IMG/VR virus record: IMGVR_UViG_3300037502_001157
Span: 1 to 38,244 of that record
Strand: one strand, 5' to 3'
DNA: 38,244 nt
Source of the DNA: a virus
The position numbers were made by a program, and so were the translations under genes. The notes beneath the pieces were generated by a model. That model was given only the letters and a program-made list of their open reading frames with translations. It was not told the origin of the DNA and searched no databases. Below, in pieces: positions 5,144 through 22,950 of the stretch; position 1 is the stretch's first letter; every line of letters starts with the position of its first letter.

Positions 5144-5479
5144 ATGGCAACGCTATCCATTGTAAAATTTGGTGATGTGGATTCACTTGCCGAATTTGCT
5201 TTTGAGAATGGTTTACAACATAAACTATTTCAAGAGACATTGATGGATCAAGGTTTTACAGTTCCTGTATTTCCTTTGATTGACATTAACATAGACAATA
5301 TTGATGATTGGCTTTTAGCTCATCAAGTAGAGCACCAAGCATTTGCTAGTTTACTAGGACTTAATAATCCATTTAACTTGCTAGATGTAGATGTAAATAA
5401 AGAAGAGGATTGGTATGACTGGGTGGCATCACATTTATACATCCATCAACAAATCGCAGCTTCATTAAGTTTAACATAA
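5144..5479 (+). CDS. Conserved hypothetical phage protein
   Basis: A 111-residue acidic soluble protein. A helical N-terminal half (VDSLAEFAFENGLQHKLF) is followed by PLIDINIDNIDDWLLAHQ and a similar C-terminal segment VDVNKEEDWYDWVASHLYIH. The pattern D-I/V-N-x-x-x-x-DW-x-x-x-H therefore occurs twice, and the pair of DW..H motifs suggests an internal duplication. It lies 10 bases after the membrane protein and just before the ACP gene. I do not recognise a function; the fibre-to-internal-virion context suggests a minor virion or assembly protein. Confidence 0.65.
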   Translation: MATLSIVKFGDVDSLAEFAFENGLQHKLFQETLMDQGFTVPVFPLIDINIDNIDDWLLAHQVEHQAFASLLGLNNPFNLLDVDVNKEEDWYDWVASHLYIHQQIAASLSLT

Positions 5480-5498
5480 TTCATTTTTGGGGATAGAA

Positions 5499-5780
5499 AT
5501 GGATAAATTAGAGCTTTTTAATGCAGTAGCTCGTATAGCTAAACCTATACATTTGACTTATACGCCTATTGCAAGCTTAGAAACGCCTTTTAAAGAGGCA
5601 AATATAGACAGTTTAGACACGATTTTGATATGTGTTTACTTTAGTGAATTGTATGGGATTGAGGAGGAAGTGGCAAAAACGATGTTGCCCGCCACCCCCC
5701 AGGAAATTTTCGATTTTCTGGAAATCCATAAAACTAAAGAGCCAGCATCTGTAGAGGATGCAGTAAGGGAAATTAAATGA
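5499..5780 (+). CDS. Acyl carrier protein
   Basis: A 93-residue acidic helical protein (from ATG 5499; leader ggggatagaa). It carries the carrier-protein signature IDSLDT at residues 36-41, where Ser38 is the expected 4'-phosphopantetheine attachment site. A helix-II-like segment and the acidic ELYGIEEEVAKTML region match the acidic recognition surface of bacterial ACPs. Its length is close to the usual ACP length. An upstream in-frame TTG at 5487 would add four residues but has no better RBS. The stop overlaps the start of the ketosynthase gene by four bases (atga), so the two are probably translated together. It must be loaded by a host phosphopantetheinyl transferase, as none is seen here. 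What acyl chain it carries is unknown. Confidence 0.8.
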   Translation: MDKLELFNAVARIAKPIHLTYTPIASLETPFKEANIDSLDTILICVYFSELYGIEEEVAKTMLPATPQEIFDFLEIHKTKEPASVEDAVREIK

Positions 5781-6883
5781 AAATTTATTTAACCCATGGC
5801 AGAAAAGCATATAGTGAACACATAGACTATTTAGAAGATTTAGCATTTCCTCAAAGGGTGCATTGGTTCCCTGAGACGTATAAAAGAGTTGGCACTGGTG
5901 TCTTTTATGTACCACACCTAGTAGCTGACAAAGTGCTAGACCAAGTATTAGCAACAGAGATAAGAGAAAAGCCAATTGGCAAAACTGCTTTTATCTTAGC
6001 TGCAGGTAATACCAACTTTGCTGGGATTAATCCTAGAAAAGTAAAAGATACACAGTTGAGTTATGTATATAAGTTTTTACCTTTTACATTAACTCAAGTG
6101 TATGCAGGTAGGATAGCTCAGTCATTTGGAGCTAACGATTTAATCATGACAGACACGAGTGCGTGTGCATCAAGTGTCAAAGTGATGATGGATGTGCAAG
6201 TTTTGATGGACTATTATAACTATGACCGAGTGGTCGTACTTGCAGTAGAAGATCAAATAGCTAATTCTACTTTAGATTTCTTTGGTGAATCTAAAGCTAT
6301 CTTAACAGAAGATGGTATTAAGCCTTCTGCTTTTGATAGTAAGAATTATGGGTTTTATGTAGGGCAAGGTGCAGCTTTAGCAGTGTTTATGTCAGAGCGT
6401 GCTGTGGATAAGTTAGGAGTTACTCCTATTGCTGAATTAAAAGGCGCTTATTCTGCAGGTGAACAACTAGACAATGCGATAGGGCAAAGGGAAGATGGTG
6501 AGGGGTTTATTAGAGCTATAGAGGGTGCTTTACACCACTCTAAAGTGACTGCAGATGAGGTAAAGATTATAAAAACTCATGGGACAGGCACCCGGTCTAA
6601 TAATATTTCAGAACGACAAGCCACCACCAAAAAAATTCCTGATTTTGTAGCCACATCCTACAAACAAAAGATTGGGCATACCATGGGTGCTAGTGGGCTT
6701 TTAGAAACACTAATGTTATTTGATGATATGGGCAAAGGATTTATTCCGGGGATACCAAATCGGACAGAACATGATACAATATTTTTATCAGAAAATAGTT
6801 CTGTTCCAGAAGGATATGTTATGACTTTAGCTGCTGGAATGGGTAATATATATTCAGCTGCAATATTTAATACAAGGATTTGA
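5777..6883 (+). CDS. Beta-ketoacyl-ACP synthase, KAS I/II (FabB/FabF) type, divergent
   Basis: A 368-residue thiolase-fold ketosynthase. The KAS I/II order is clear: nucleophile Cys130 in TDTSACASSVK; an insert-like region with AFDSKNYGFYVGQGAALAVF (compare the usual PFD-x-x-R-D-G-F-x-x-G-E-G-A); His268 in IKTHGTGTRSN; and His301 in KIGHTMGASG. This completes a Cys-His-His catalytic set. The C-terminal GFGG-type loop is replaced by LAAGMGNIYSAA, and the N-terminus lacks the usual VVVTGxG opening. It is about 40 residues shorter than FabF. By family it condenses an acyl thioester on the Cys with malonyl-ACP. It is coupled to the ACP gene by a four-base overlap and sits inside the late virion operon. 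The choice of KAS I/II rather than KAS III is firm because both His motifs are of the I/II type. Confidence 0.85.
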   Translation: MKIYLTHGRKAYSEHIDYLEDLAFPQRVHWFPETYKRVGTGVFYVPHLVADKVLDQVLATEIREKPIGKTAFILAAGNTNFAGINPRKVKDTQLSYVYKFLPFTLTQVYAGRIAQSFGANDLIMTDTSACASSVKVMMDVQVLMDYYNYDRVVVLAVEDQIANSTLDFFGESKAILTEDGIKPSAFDSKNYGFYVGQGAALAVFMSERAVDKLGVTPIAELKGAYSAGEQLDNAIGQREDGEGFIRAIEGALHHSKVTADEVKIIKTHGTGTRSNNISERQATTKKIPDFVATSYKQKIGHTMGASGLLETLMLFDDMGKGFIPGIPNRTEHDTIFLSENSSVPEGYVMTLAAGMGNIYSAAIFNTRI

Positions 6884-6884
6884 T

Positions 6885-7334
6885 ATGGCTGAAATGGTAG
6901 ATAGTTCAAAAGATTTGCTTGATACGGATAAAATTATCCAAAAAGCAGTGATGAATATTCGTTCCCCTTATTCCTACGATCAAGTTTACAAATCCATAGC
7001 AGAAGAGTTACAACAACCAGGCACTCAATTCATTCGTGAAGGCAATACCTTATTTATTGTCCATTACGATCATGGTCGTGTTGGCACATTTCGTGCTTTA
7101 AACGCAGACACCGCATTAAATTACATCAATAGTAGTTGGTTATTTATCAAAGCTTGTTATGACATGGGTTATGACACACTTATTACAGAATTTTATGATC
7201 CTACTATTGTTAATATTTTCAGAACAATATCTAAAAACCCGCCTTACCCAGAAATGGGATACAACATTAAGCAAAGTGTTGATGGATGGATAGGCACTAT
7301 TAAATTAGGTCCAGACCGAGACGGAGAACTATAA
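6885..7334 (+). CDS. Conserved phage protein, possibly GNAT-like acyltransferase fold
   Basis: A 149-residue protein. Residues 12-40 form an acidic amphipathic segment (DTDKIIQKAVMNIRSPYSYD). Then come alternating strands and helices: GNTLFIVHY, GRVGTFRALN, a long helix with WLFIKACYDMGYDTLITE, and a final strand GWIGTIKLG. A helix-GYDTL-strand pattern like this is seen in GNAT-type N-acyltransferases, but no clear acyl-CoA pyrophosphate loop (R/Q-x-x-G-x-G/A) is present, so this is only a tentative fold call. It lies one base after the ketosynthase and one base overlaps the next virion gene. If it is an acyltransferase it would be the natural partner of the ACP and ketosynthase. Confidence 0.55.
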   Translation: MAEMVDSSKDLLDTDKIIQKAVMNIRSPYSYDQVYKSIAEELQQPGTQFIREGNTLFIVHYDHGRVGTFRALNADTALNYINSSWLFIKACYDMGYDTLITEFYDPTIVNIFRTISKNPPYPEMGYNIKQSVDGWIGTIKLGPDRDGEL

Positions 7335-8281
7335 TGGGTGGAGTAGCCAAAGCAATAGGTAGTGTAGTAAGTGGTGTAGCTGAAGCCGTAGGTGATGTAG
7401 TTGAGGCTGTAGCAGAAAATCCTATATTAGCTACTGCAGCATTAGCTGTAACAGGTGTTCCTTTACCAGGAGTGATTGCTAGTTTACCAGCTCCTGTATC
7501 AGCTGCTGCTATTTCAATGGCATCTACTGCAATTCAAGGTGGTGACTTTGGCGACATTATTAAAGCAGGTGCTGCTGGTGCATTAGGTAGTGCTGTGGGT
7601 GGTGCTGTAGGTGGTAAAGTTGCAAGCTCATTTGGTGATACTGCAGGTAAAGTTGCTGGCTCTGCAGCTGGTGGTTTTACAGGCACATTAGTTCAAACAG
7701 GTGATGTTGGTACAGCACTTAAAGGTGGTGTAATGGGTGGCGCTGGTGCTGCATTACAAGCAGGCATTTCATCTGGTTTAGAAGCAGTCAAACAACAATT
7801 TCCAGGCACTACAACAACTCAACAAGCTGGTCCAAGTGGATTACAAGTGGGTCAACAAGTTCCTACTTCACCATTTGGCACTACAGAGACTGTAGCTCCT
7901 ACCTCTCCATTTGGAACTAGAACATTTGATACTCTTCCAAGTATGCAATATAACCCTAGCTTTGTAGAAAGAGCTATTGGTGCTGCTGGTCCAGCTGCAA
8001 CTGATTTAGCCTCTGATGCACTAAAACCTACATTGGCTTCTGCTTTAGGATTTGGTGGACAACCTACTACACAAAGCACTGGTCCGGCTCCAGGGGCAGC
8101 TCCTGGTGTAGCAGTGACAGGTGAAGGCTCTGCTGTTAATCCAGCCGCAGCTTCAGCATTAGCACAAGCATTAAGAGTAGGCGATCCTGGTGCACCATTA
8201 TTTGGTACAGAAGGTAAAGGACAACAACAAGCAGTATGGAATACTGCATCACTTAAATTTTCAGATGAGGTAGGAGGCTAA
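7334..8281 (+). CDS. Gly/Ala-rich internal virion (DNA ejection-type) protein
   Basis: A 315-residue protein of strongly biased composition. Residues 1-150 are Gly/Ala/Val-rich with several hydrophobic or amphipathic stretches (AVGGAVGGKVASSFGD, GGVMGGAGAAL). Residues 155-270 are Pro/Thr/Gln-rich with a repeated TSPFGT motif (about residues 177 and 189). The start overlaps the previous stop by one base. Hydrophobic, glycine-zipper-like proteins in this position, followed by two or three larger helical proteins, are typical internal virion or ejection proteins of podoviruses. These enter the envelope with the genome. The exact role is inferred. Confidence 0.6.
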   Translation: MGGVAKAIGSVVSGVAEAVGDVVEAVAENPILATAALAVTGVPLPGVIASLPAPVSAAAISMASTAIQGGDFGDIIKAGAAGALGSAVGGAVGGKVASSFGDTAGKVAGSAAGGFTGTLVQTGDVGTALKGGVMGGAGAALQAGISSGLEAVKQQFPGTTTTQQAGPSGLQVGQQVPTSPFGTTETVAPTSPFGTRTFDTLPSMQYNPSFVERAIGAAGPAATDLASDALKPTLASALGFGGQPTTQSTGPAPGAAPGVAVTGEGSAVNPAAASALAQALRVGDPGAPLFGTEGKGQQQAVWNTASLKFSDEVGG

Positions 8282-8283
8282 GT

Positions 8284-9351
8284 ATGGCTAAAATATTAGA
8301 AACATTAAGATTGGATGTAATGGGAGATTTATCACTTCCTGCATTAGCTCAAGTAATTCAATCAAAAGGTCGTGGTCCAGATACCATACTAGCTCACATT
8401 ACACCTAAAGAAGCAGAGAAATTAAAACGTGATGGTGGTGCAGGTACAATTAATCCAGACACTGGTTTACCAGAGTTTTATGAGGATTACTATACTCCTA
8501 CAGACACAGGTGGCTACCCATCATTTATGTCATCTAGCTTACCAGAATATACACCTACTGCATCTTATGCTCCTGATTTCTCATTTACTGGTGGTGGATA
8601 TGAACCAGACTACTATACAGGAGGCGGCTACGATTACTCACCCTCAGCTGTTTCTGCTGCCCCTGAGGCTCCTAGTGGATTTGCAGGTGGCATTTCATTT
8701 GGTGAAACTCCAAGAGAATTGCAACCTATTGAATCACTTATGGATTTAAGAACACCTACAGGAGAAAGACCAGGTGTTGGTATTCCTCAACTTCCTAGAG
8801 ATGCTATTGAAATTCCTAGAGGTGGTGTAACTCAAGATCGTGGGTTTACAGAAAAGTTAAAAGAATATTTAACTAATCCAGAAGTTTTAGGCAAATTAGG
8901 TATTGCAGGATTAGGTGCTATTAGTGGTGCTAGAACTGCTAAACAAGCTAGAGAGCAAGGTCAAGAAGCTAAGAGAGAAACTCAAGCTGTAGCAGCTCCA
9001 TACCTAGCTCGTGGTAGAGACCTTGTGGGTAGAGCAGAACGTGGTGAATTAACACCATCTAACTTACAAGCTTATCAAGCAGCTCAAGCAAGATTATCTC
9101 AAGGTGTTGAATCTCGCGGTGGCGTTGGAGCTCAACAAATAGCTACTCAATTAGCTATGTTAAGAAATGAATTGTTACAAAATCAATATGACTATGGTCT
9201 TAAGATTTTAGGTATTGGTGACAATATTGCACTAGGCGCAATCAAGACTGGTTTAGAAGCAGATCGTTATGTTAATGAATTAACTGGTAATTACTTTAAT
9301 AATATTGCTAGAACTGTGTATGGTAGTTCTGTGCAACCTTCTAGGGCATAA
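8284..9351 (+). CDS. Internal virion-type structural protein
   Basis: A 355-residue protein. The N-terminal 55 residues are a conserved phage motif region ending in AGTINPDTGLPEFYEDYY. Residues about 58-125 are Tyr/Gly/Pro-rich low complexity. The C-terminal half (about 190-355) is helical and Gln/Ala/Arg-rich, with a Gly-rich hydrophobic segment (LGIAGLGAISGA) followed by long amphipathic helices. The motif GTINPxTGLPEF is known from proteins encoded near internal virion genes of several phage groups. Neighbours on both sides are large helical proteins of the same type. A role in ejection or the internal core is inferred. Confidence 0.65.
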   Translation: MAKILETLRLDVMGDLSLPALAQVIQSKGRGPDTILAHITPKEAEKLKRDGGAGTINPDTGLPEFYEDYYTPTDTGGYPSFMSSSLPEYTPTASYAPDFSFTGGGYEPDYYTGGGYDYSPSAVSAAPEAPSGFAGGISFGETPRELQPIESLMDLRTPTGERPGVGIPQLPRDAIEIPRGGVTQDRGFTEKLKEYLTNPEVLGKLGIAGLGAISGARTAKQAREQGQEAKRETQAVAAPYLARGRDLVGRAERGELTPSNLQAYQAAQARLSQGVESRGGVGAQQIATQLAMLRNELLQNQYDYGLKILGIGDNIALGAIKTGLEADRYVNELTGNYFNNIARTVYGSSVQPSRA

Positions 9352-14937: not shown

Positions 14938-15371
14938 ACTTGTCAGAACACTTTACGTTAGAGGAACTAACTGTAAGTGAAACAGCCTCTCGCAAAAATC
15001 TAAACAATACACCAGACAATATTGCTTTATACAATCTAAGAAGATTGGCTCTATTCCTAGAAGATGTGCGAGCTTTGCTAGGAAAGCCTATTAAAATTAA
15101 CTCTGCTTATCGTGCACCTAAAGTCAATGCTTCTGTAGGTGGTAGCAAAACATCACAGCATTGTATGGGATGTGCAGCTGATATAAGAGTAACTGGTATG
15201 ACACCAGATGAAGTAGTGCGTGCTATCATTAAGAGTGATCTACCTTATGACCAAGTGATAAGAGAATTTGATTCATGGACACACATCTCTATCCCTAATC
15301 GCAAGGAAGATAAACCTCGTAAGATGGCTTTAATCATTGACAACTTTGGGACTAAAAAATATGGCAGTTAG
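14934..15371 (+). CDS. Endolysin, peptidase M15-type (D-Ala-D-Ala carboxypeptidase-like)
   Basis: A 145-residue zinc peptidase of the M15 group that cleaves peptide cross-links in peptidoglycan. The family motifs are present: INSAYRAPKVNASVGGSKTS, then Gln-His76, AADI with Asp83, and SWTHISI with His117. His76, Asp83 and His117 would be the zinc ligands. There is no signal peptide, so it needs the holin encoded immediately upstream (four-base overlap). Length fits single-domain phage M15 endolysins. Its end overlaps the next small gene by 11 bases. Confidence 0.85.
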   Translation: MNLSEHFTLEELTVSETASRKNLNNTPDNIALYNLRRLALFLEDVRALLGKPIKINSAYRAPKVNASVGGSKTSQHCMGCAADIRVTGMTPDEVVRAIIKSDLPYDQVIREFDSWTHISIPNRKEDKPRKMALIIDNFGTKKYGS

Positions 15372-15627
15372 TTTATCTATTGGTCGTGGTGAGAAGTTAC
15401 CTGTATCTAAAGGTGCAGGCTTAACAGCTAAAGGCAGAGCTAAATACAATCGTGCTACTGGCTCTAAGTTAAAACCTCCAGCACCTAATCCTAAAACAAA
15501 AAGAGATGTAGCTCGTAAGAAATCTTTTTGTGCTAGAATGTCTGGGATGCCTGGACCTATGAAAGATAGCAAAGGCAGACCTACAAGAAAAGCAGCATCA
15601 TTAAGACGATGGGGGTGTGGAAGATGA
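15361..15627 (+). CDS. Small basic conserved phage protein, DUF6321-like
   Basis: An 88-residue, very basic protein (ATG 15361; an in-frame TTG at 15337 lies within the endolysin and is less likely). It has the conserved blocks GEKLPVSKGAGLTAKGRAKY, LKPPAPNPK, KKSFCARMSGMPGPMKD and GRPTRKAASLRRWGC. These match a widespread family of short phage proteins of unknown function, often near structural or packaging genes. The start overlaps the endolysin gene and the stop overlaps the next ATG by four bases. Confidence 0.75.
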   Translation: MAVSLSIGRGEKLPVSKGAGLTAKGRAKYNRATGSKLKPPAPNPKTKRDVARKKSFCARMSGMPGPMKDSKGRPTRKAASLRRWGCGR

Positions 15628-15776
15628 AGCCAGGTTTATATGCAAATATCCATAAAAAAAGAGCACGCATAGCTCAAGGTTCTGGTGAACGTATGAGAGC
15701 GCCTGGAACTAAAGGTGCCCCAACAGCTAAAGCATTTAAAGAATCAGCAAAGACAGCTAGAAAATCTAAACGTTAA
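15624..15776 (+). CDS. Small basic conserved phage protein
   Basis: A 50-residue Lys/Arg/Ala-rich protein: MKPGLYANIHKKRARIAQGS, a centre GERMRAPGTKGAPTAKAF, ending in AKTARKSKR. This pattern is commonly seen next to DUF6321-like genes in phages. The start overlaps the previous stop (atga). It is the last gene of the rightward arm; its stop overlaps by four bases the stop of the leftward glycosyltransferase gene. Confidence 0.65.
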   Translation: MKPGLYANIHKKRARIAQGSGERMRAPGTKGAPTAKAFKESAKTARKSKR

Positions 15777-16513
15777 GGAGCAGGGACTAGCTGTCCTTCA
15801 AACGTATATGTCCCAACGTGAGCTAGACGAACCCATGGAGCTCCCCATACCTTTATCCCGTTTAAACGTGCTATACGACAAAAATGATAATCCTCAGAAA
15901 GTAACCTATTGGTTTCTGGTTCAATCGAAGTCGCAAAGTATTCCACGATGGGAGCCTGAGCCTTTATCGATCCTCCTAAATCAGTCACATCATTATTATA
16001 TGTAGGGCATACATCCTTTAACTTCTCAAACACTTCACGTTTGATGAGCATAAAGCCTGTGCCACCATTCCATATCTCAACTGGGTCATTCAATGGCACC
16101 ACTGTTTCACCAGCATAGCCTACAAGATTCACCACAAAAGAACCTGTGTAATACTTTAACTCTTCTGTCTTAACATTATTCTGAATAGCTTTTTGTAAGC
16201 TTGGAAAGTTAATTTCTTTTTTAGGATACAACCCACAGATAATTTCTTTGTCAGCCTCAATCATCTTAACTAGATCATTAGGATTAAATCGTATGTCACT
16301 ATCAATAAACATAAGATGTGTGGCATCACTATTTAAAAAGCCATGCGACAGAGCGTTCCTAGCCCTAGTAATAAGGGATTCATTAAACATAAAGCTAAAG
16401 ATAGATTCAATACTGTTCTGATCTAATACTCTTTGAAGCATTAAAATTGATTGAGTGTAGTAGCCATAACATTGACCACCATACATAGGTGTTGCGATAA
16501 ATACTTTTGCCAT
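15773..16513 (-). CDS. Glycosyltransferase (GT-A-like)
   Basis: A 246-residue protein with a GT-A nucleotide-sugar fold by motif: N-terminal strand KVFIATPMYGG, LITRARNAL (residues 48-56), a DxD metal motif in FIDSDI (Asp71-Ser-Asp73), a GGTGFMLIKREVFE block (about 150-163), SEDYHFC (Glu207-Asp208) and His232 near the C-terminus. No transmembrane anchor is seen. Enzymes of this kind in phages modify DNA bases, virion glycans or host surface sugars; the acceptor here is unknown. It is the last gene of the leftward arm and meets the late arm tail to tail. A good leader (aaggggattt) precedes the ATG. Confidence 0.75.
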   Translation of the reverse strand: MAKVFIATPMYGGQCYGYYTQSILMLQRVLDQNSIESIFSFMFNESLITRARNALSHGFLNSDATHLMFIDSDIRFNPNDLVKMIEADKEIICGLYPKKEINFPSLQKAIQNNVKTEELKYYTGSFVVNLVGYAGETVVPLNDPVEIWNGGTGFMLIKREVFEKLKDVCPTYNNDVTDLGGSIKAQAPIVEYFATSIEPETNRLLSEDYHFCRIARLNGIKVWGAPWVRLAHVGTYTFEGQLVPAP

Positions 16514-16598: not shown

Positions 16599-16961
16599 TC
16601 AGGCTTGGGGGGTTTTATAACGATCAACTCTAACAATTGCCCCACCACCTGATACGATTTCTTTGCGTTCAATCACTAGACGATAGACTTGCTTGTCATC
16701 ATTATACAAGCCTGCATCTTGCAGTGCATCTAAAATAGATTTACAGCAATTATCTATATCCATTAACCTTTTGTTTCTAGGATATAAGTCGATGTGAACT
16801 TCTAGTAATTCATCTCCAAATGTCTTGGCTTTAGCTTGTATGATCTCTAACCAGACAGCTTGTTTAAACGCTTTGCCACGAGCCGAGATGAATCGTCTAT
16901 GTCCTGATGCTATCCAATAGTTATTGACTGATGGAGGATAAGGCAAATTTAATGTGACCAC
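16599..16961 (-). CDS. rusA: RusA-like Holliday junction resolvase
   Basis: A 120-residue nuclease of the RusA family that cuts four-way DNA junctions. The family signature is clear: LPYPPSVNNYWIASG at the N-terminus, then MDIDNCCKSILDALQDAG with Asp68 and Asp70, and an acidic DD pair at 88-89 (NDDKQV), which are the metal-binding residues. Length equals that of E. coli RusA. It overlaps the stop of the SSB-like gene by one base. In this recombination cluster (exonuclease, annealase, SSB-like) it probably resolves branched replication or recombination intermediates before packaging. Confidence 0.85.
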   Translation of the reverse strand: MVTLNLPYPPSVNNYWIASGHRRFISARGKAFKQAVWLEIIQAKAKTFGDELLEVHIDLYPRNKRLMDIDNCCKSILDALQDAGLYNDDKQVYRLVIERKEIVSGGGAIVRVDRYKTPQA

Positions 16962-22323: not shown

Positions 22324-22950
22324 CTATGCAACGGCTCTTAAGGGCTCTTCAATCGGTGCTTCGGGCTTATAATCGATCCATAGGGGCTTTTTATAAGCAT
22401 TGAAGTCCGCTTTTGATCGATAAGGCATAATCACACCTAAAAAATTGGTGTTTTGAATATCGATCACACTTCCGCTATGCCCGTTATGCCCGATTGCAAT
22501 ATCGCAATTTTTAACATCATTTAAAATACAAGCGCATTTTTTAAACTGCATAAGAAAATCGGGATCAAATTGAGCGATTTCATTGTTTAATGATTCTGGG
22601 ATAACCTTGCGAAAATCTGGATATTTCCCATCAATCGCAGGCGCTTTAAAAGTATTATGTAGATAATTGATCTCGATCATGGGATTCAAATCTAAATCAA
22701 TTAAGCTTATATTCTTAATCACTTTAGAAGCTTGATCGATTAAAGTGCTGGGAATAACGTGCTCAATCGGTGCATCCGATTTTATTTCATCGTTATGATA
22801 AATACCCATTTTATGTCCATCGGTTGCGACAAAATAGGCGCCGTTCTGATTTATTTCAACGTAAACACCGTTAAGATAATAACGGATGTCTTTTTTTGCT
22901 GTTAAAACATTTAAAGCTTTTAAAATATTAAAATCTATTTGAAATTTCAT
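22324..22950 (-). CDS. Half-length DnaN-like sliding clamp
   Basis: A 208-residue protein. Residues about 22-52 read DIRYYLNGVYVEINQNGAYF, then VATDGHKMGIYH. This is the YLNG-V-x-x-E / ATDGHRL motif of the bacterial polymerase III beta clamp, domain 2. Later blocks PAIDGKYPDFRKVIP (about 117-131) and FLGVIMPYR also fit beta-clamp strands (compare EFPDxxxVIP and the terminal MPMR). Bacterial DnaN has about 370 residues in three domains; here there is room for about one and a half to two. It could trimerise instead of dimerise, or sequester host polymerase or repair factors. No phage polymerase is seen nearby. Confidence 0.7.
   Translation of the reverse strand: MKFQIDFNILKALNVLTAKKDIRYYLNGVYVEINQNGAYFVATDGHKMGIYHNDEIKSDAPIEHVIPSTLIDQASKVIKNISLIDLDLNPMIEINYLHNTFKAPAIDGKYPDFRKVIPESLNNEIAQFDPDFLMQFKKCACILNDVKNCDIAIGHNGHSGSVIDIQNTNFLGVIMPYRSKADFNAYKKPLWIDYKPEAPIEEPLRAVA

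Follow-up and report, generated by a model that had tools for sequence, protein, structure and literature searches.

A widespread phage gene cassette encoding an acyl carrier protein, a ketosynthase and a GNAT-fold protein lies at the head of an ejection block and may acylate a virion protein

The window analysed here is the whole 38,244-nucleotide stretch of IMG/VR virus record IMGVR_UViG_3300037502_001157. On its plus strand, three genes follow one another: one for an acyl carrier protein (ACP; 93 amino acids, 5499..5780), one for a KAS I/II-type beta-ketoacyl-ACP synthase (ketosynthase, KS; 368 amino acids, 5777..6883) and, directly 3' of the KS, one for a GNAT-fold protein of 149 amino acids (6885..7334), a putative acyltransferase. 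The ACP and KS genes have the four bases ATGA at 5777-5780 in common. On the left, the three are bounded by g5 (5144..5479, plus strand, 111 amino acids). On the right, they are followed on the same strand by d1 (7334..8281), whose start overlaps the GNAT stop by one base, and by d2 (8284..9351, 355 amino acids). The original prediction, made from the letters of this DNA, described a coupled ACP-KS pair overlapping by four bases at 5499-6883. The pair, the overlap and the coordinates were right; the GNAT gene was overlooked, and the unit is thus one of three genes, reaching at least 7334 and perhaps, functionally, 8281.

The ACP gene begins at ATG 5499, preceded by GGGGAT, and stops at 5780; an alternative TTG start at 5487 is in frame and open. 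Its phosphopantetheine site had been correctly placed at Ser38, within IDSLDT. This serine is invariant across the family alignments, and DSLD is present in 114/114 of the ACPs adjoining distinct phage KS genes. In the HMM searches suggested with the original prediction, the single ACP sequence stayed below cut-offs, with no Pfam, no NCBIfam and no significant PDB match, but the family profile did match PDB ACPs (best value 4e-4), which made up all but one unrelated entry among the 60 matches listed. An AlphaFold2 (AF2) model reached a pLDDT of 92.8, and its Foldseek list consists of ACPs throughout, all at E >= 0.05, a level sometimes seen with proteins that are small and helical. By its four-helix fold and its family profile, the protein is an acyl carrier. 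In E. coli ACP, DSLDT-V is followed by an acidic residue; in all of these ACPs, the position in helix II (residue 43) is hydrophobic instead, a difference that speaks for a private carrier.

The same searches placed both Pfam halves of the KS (PF00109, 2.8e-10; PF02801, 6.6e-14) past their curated cut-offs, and its best PDB match is the streptococcal-type FabF entry 2rjt (2.4e-21). Against NCBIfam, the KS matched FabF at 3.7e-28 with 98 bits, far under the equivalog cut-off of 494 that marks FabF membership, and so this is no ordinary FabF. Cys130, His268, Lys296 and His301 are invariant in a 23-sequence alignment, and the cysteine and both histidines are kept in all 116 distinct KS genes, including a few missed by a regular expression and checked by eye. 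Pfam, NCBIfam, the PDB and the alignment thus agree with the predicted KAS I/II identity and its full Cys130-His268-His301 set, while PHROG places the protein in a group labelled 'unknown function'. We found no fabG, fabD or fabZ in the window. In one relative, L002 (MW202545.1), the KS gene occupies 14998-16098; the deposited protein UOF78413.1 begins at 15154, about 52 codons past the conserved start, so its N-terminus was probably cut short.

The third protein had no Pfam or PHROG match, and its family profile found no credible match in the PDB by sequence. Its identification comes from structure. An AF2 model built from 37 relatives (pLDDT 90.4) is ordered helix-helix, three strands, helix, strand, helix, two strands, and Foldseek returned 41 GNAT matches in the PDB at E <= 1e-3, with TM scores of about 0.45-0.59 and RimI and ArsN foremost. 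In the viral library, an uncultured phage supplied the best match, a clear homologue, and a protein called 'Internal virion protein A', the name given to T7 gp13, appeared at 2.8e-4. The usual acetyl-CoA loop of GNATs, Q/RxxGxG/A, is absent from its place: strand 4 and helix 3 are joined by three residues alone, AD[TS], which leaves no room for it. A regular expression for the loop matched 8/37 GNATs, each time upstream, ahead of the strand. Absence of this loop is expected of enzymes that use acyl-ACP, such as those of the LuxI and HlyC type, and equally of a dead enzyme. Conserved residues of the GNAT include E41, H60, N73 and D75. His60 is nearly universal; L002 is without it, so that there is no universally conserved catalytic histidine. 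By sequence, the GNAT matched none of the LuxI, N-acyl synthase and HlyC-type families.

Among the 116 distinct phage KS genes, the ACP gene lies directly upstream in 113/113 cases with room for it and the GNAT gene directly downstream in 111/111; an arrangement kept across this many distinct genes is not chance. An IMG/VR scan with the single KS found 177 relatives, one with the KS alignment at least 547 viral contigs and one with the GNAT at least 442 relatives. The dedicated module that had been proposed as novel is therefore conserved and intact, but it is widespread and not peculiar to this phage. Three findings had been named in advance as speaking against the module: homologues without a modifiable serine, close relatives without the KS histidines and cysteine, and the pair with the same neighbours in host chromosomes. 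Relatives keep the serine and the KS residues, and a scan of cellular-genome contigs gave one close match (L083, 58%), with phage gene order, and one other at 24%; the scan used short conserved peptides, which distant host KS genes could escape. It yielded no recent host gene with a close cellular homologue, the mark of an auxiliary metabolic gene, and we set aside the idea that the pair are stray host genes. L083 (JAGYJQ010000016.1), a cassette-bearing contig of 37.6 kb, was assigned to a Balneolaceae metagenome-assembled genome. As the GNAT is absent from 91 further Balneolaceae genomes, this binning either points to the host or has misplaced a phage. We also considered the Venkman methylophage as a carrier, since one region is partly similar, but it has no KS and its gp47 fails the GNAT profile.

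In the window, the cassette sits within a same-strand virion block, between tail-like genes and d1-d4, which agrees with the predicted position of ACP and KS within virion genes. Downstream of the cassette, the PHROG label 'DNA ejection protein' applies to a gene in L021 (1.4e-15) and, more weakly, in L034 and L008, and the downstream block of MW202545 includes an SLT transglycosylase. Loci in which an ejection protein is named within the block suggest that d2 is an ejection-block protein as well; it is kept in relatives whether they carry the cassette or not. Phages whose backbones otherwise differ have the cassette at this same front end of the ejection block, and the order of the genes suggests that it is expressed late. 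The original prediction had preferred modification of a virion component over metabolic boosting, and this preference is strengthened by the location and by the GNAT, although the reading as a whole is only partly supported.

Elsewhere in the window, on the minus strand, the gene at 22324-22950 is called a RusA-like resolvase by PHROG (phrog_3007) and a DNA polymerase III beta-clamp by Pfam (PF02767, 4.7e-12); the PHROG name is probably a naming error. A real RusA match lies at 16599-16961 (minus strand). The gene at 15773-16513, also on the minus strand, belongs to phrog_1574, of unknown function, with a weak glycosyltransferase signal (PF00535 and PF03452, both under cut-off).

The slot held by the GNAT is that of gene 13 in T7, which precedes the internal virion genes 14-16. 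Compared by sequence, the window GNAT family and T7 gp13 (PF11090) gave no Pfam match and no profile-profile signal. Sequence homology of the GNAT to gp13 is thus not supported, and we claim a shared fold and place, not family membership. As T7 gp13 is regarded as an internal virion protein with a probable scaffold or morphogenesis role (PF11090), ACP, KS and GNAT could all have been co-opted as chaperones or a scaffold for ejection proteins, working without acyl chemistry, and the missing CoA loop of the GNAT would fit. We consider this very improbable. The KS cysteine, lysine and both histidines and the ACP serine are kept in every distinct sequence, and among the three proteins conservation is highest in the KS, at 76% mean column identity, a pattern hard to explain without catalysis.

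Relatives without the full cassette bear on how closely its genes belong together. The left boundary gene g5, kept whether or not the cassette is there, has 501 viral relatives, and its neighbour varies between the cassette, a lone GNAT-like gene and an unrelated gene of about 125 amino acids. Of 80 g5 loci examined, the full cassette occurs in five and a lone, distant GNAT-like gene in nine; the majority carry neither. Two close relatives of the window phage, MW202753 and MW202825 (terminase about 80% identical), both lack the cassette, its slot being filled by an unrelated 125-aa gene in the first and empty in the second; the cassette is therefore accessory. In a GNAT tree, cassette GNATs stand apart from GNAT-only ones. 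The exception is L120, nested inside the cassette group: it still has the GNAT and the d1 N-terminus, but its ACP and KS appear to have been lost. In this natural deletion (L120:2664-3610), whose nearest cassette relative is L118, g5 and the GNAT are separated by a gap that contains neither ACP nor KS and holds a TTGACA-like stretch. The nine distant GNAT-only loci (L185, L193, L220, L224, L227, L230, L232, L233 and L234) form a GNAT-like clade in the same slot without ACP-KS, and some of their d1 proteins begin MGG[VA]VKAV, others not. Together, L120 and these roughly nine phages indicate that the GNAT can function with a different donor or with none.

These phages are the best evidence for the main rival to a single acylation unit, namely that ACP and KS are metabolic, redirecting or boosting host fatty-acid synthesis in the service of membrane supply or composition, and that the GNAT is a gp13-like assembly protein adjoining them by chance. 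GNAT-like proteins beside ejection genes without ACP-KS are also found in T7 (gp13) and in Cobaviruses (PMC6775973), and lone phage ACPs and a prophage acpP-fabF-fabG set have been interpreted as genes of fatty-acid metabolism (PMC8224337, PMC10452541, PMC11924767). However, a free-standing metabolic pair would not be expected to be linked without exception to a single GNAT clade, nor to lie in the virion block across different backbones; the scan by short conserved peptides found no close cellular relative, and the hydrophobic residue 43, where E. coli ACP is acidic, points to a private carrier. On balance, we think this division of the three genes somewhat unlikely, while granting it a substantial share of the doubt.

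If the cassette acts on a virion protein, then the likeliest target is the product of the next gene. From its place, the Gly/Ala-rich d1 product is probably a virion or ejection protein, and its place and N-terminal motif make it a candidate acceptor. Among 91 distinct d1 N-termini from cassette phages, residue 2 is Ser in 49 and Gly in 37, typically followed by A-V-V, with V at positions 8, 11, 12, 15 and 19, the spacing of an amphipathic helix. An M[SG]AVV start with this amphipathic N-terminus occurs in 76/94 GNAT-carrying sets and in 1/30 sets without the GNAT; within the same C-terminal type only, the counts are 20/28 and 0/20. Since the motif was written after inspection and the sequences are related, we treat this contrast as a lead rather than a p-value. 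Without the GNAT, d1 usually starts with a hydrophobic stretch or unrelated sequence. Ser or Gly at residue 2 is weakened as evidence of acylation when taken by itself, as Gly2 is common also without the GNAT; it is the longer motif that discriminates.

Three such genes would also suffice to make a small molecule, an N-acyl amine or amino acid whose target would be the host membrane, signalling or competing phages. The GNAT fold is in place, and GNAT-fold enzymes that make small N-acyl products from acyl-ACP are known, among them LuxI, FeeM and OlsB. Against this, the GNAT matches neither the LuxI nor the N-acyl synthase families, and both the constant position of the cassette in front of the ejection genes and the co-variation of the d1 N-terminus would be coincidence. 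We judge such a product improbable.

Taken together, a private ACP, an intact KS and a loop-less GNAT are most simply read as a system for acyl transfer to an amine, and it is the GNAT, as third gene, that makes acyl transfer a specific idea. Our preferred reading, held tentatively and at somewhat less than even confidence, is that ACP, KS and GNAT form one acylation cassette that places a chain on a virion or ejection protein during virion assembly. In the first step, host AcpS or another phosphopantetheinyl transferase would load Ser38 of the phage ACP. Judging from its family and conserved residues, the phage KS would then condense a host-derived acyl group with malonyl-ACP, so that the phage ACP would carry a (3-oxo)acyl chain, with or without later reduction by host FabG/FabZ/FabI. 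The fold of the GNAT and its strict linkage suggest that it would transfer the chain carried by the phage ACP to an amine. The last step is the least certain: a virion protein belonging to the ejection apparatus would accept the chain, and d1, to which the cassette's place and the co-varying N-terminus point, is the likeliest candidate, perhaps at its N-terminal Ser or Gly after removal of Met. Lipid and amphipathic helix together would aid insertion of d1 into the host envelope during genome delivery.

One could go further and see here a phage equivalent of those animal-virus penetration proteins that are N-myristoylated, with the cassette lipidating the amphipathic N-terminus of an ejection protein and so aiding its insertion into the envelope; we consider this rather unlikely. 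By extension, T7-type GNAT-like gp13 proteins may act as, or descend from, acyltransferases. Were the acylation model true, these phages would lipidate their own virion protein with their own acyl machinery, a chemical step would be added to phage passage through the cell envelope, and a function would be suggested for the unexplained GNAT-like protein beside the ejection genes of T7, Cobaviruses and others. Lipidation of an ejection protein, if shown, would be categorically new. The genes and their linkage already amount to a frequent unannotated cassette in at least hundreds of environmental phage contigs.

Each enzyme kind is already known, as are GNATs beside ejection genes and acyl-ACP-dependent acylation. 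Of an ACP-KS-GNAT phage cassette, we found no description among the open-licence papers searched. Lone phage ACPs have been reported (PMC10452541, PMC11924767), and the nearest arrangement is acpP-fabF-fabG in three called Rhodobacteraceae prophages (PMC8224337). There, ACP and KS genes likewise lie side by side in called phage regions, but in the order fabG-acpP-fabF of the host operon, without a GNAT and not described as part of a virion block. As this is a bacterial operon order, these genes may be host sequence within over-extended prophage calls. For the GNAT, the closest parallels in position are in T7 and in the Cobaviruses. T7 gp13 has a GNAT-like fold, a similar size and a place directly ahead of the ejection genes, but, unlike the phage GNAT, no adjoining ACP-KS. 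The Cobavirus/SIO1 GNAT is likewise directly ahead of ejection-protein genes, beside internal virion proteins, and was taken as the likely equivalent of T7 gp13, with a suggested role in morphogenesis (PMC6775973).

Among enzyme systems, FabF and AcpP of type II fatty acid synthesis share with the cassette the KS fold family, the Cys-His-Lys-His residues, an ACP with a DSLD site and the order of genes, the ACP just ahead of the KS. The phage KS differs from FabF in a shorter N-terminal part and in its C-terminal glycine motif, AAGMGN, which in FabF is GFGGTN. FeeL/FeeM, the N-acyl amino acid synthase system, combines a dedicated ACP with a GNAT-fold synthase, as the cassette does, but its product is a small molecule and it has no phage or virion context. 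Toxin-activating acyltransferases of the HlyC type use the host ACP as donor and internal lysines as acceptors, unlike the phage GNAT, whose activity is our proposal. What they have in common with it is the GNAT fold, a size of about 150 amino acids and, in the model proposed here, an acyl-ACP donor and an acceptor that is the product of the next gene and is headed for a membrane.
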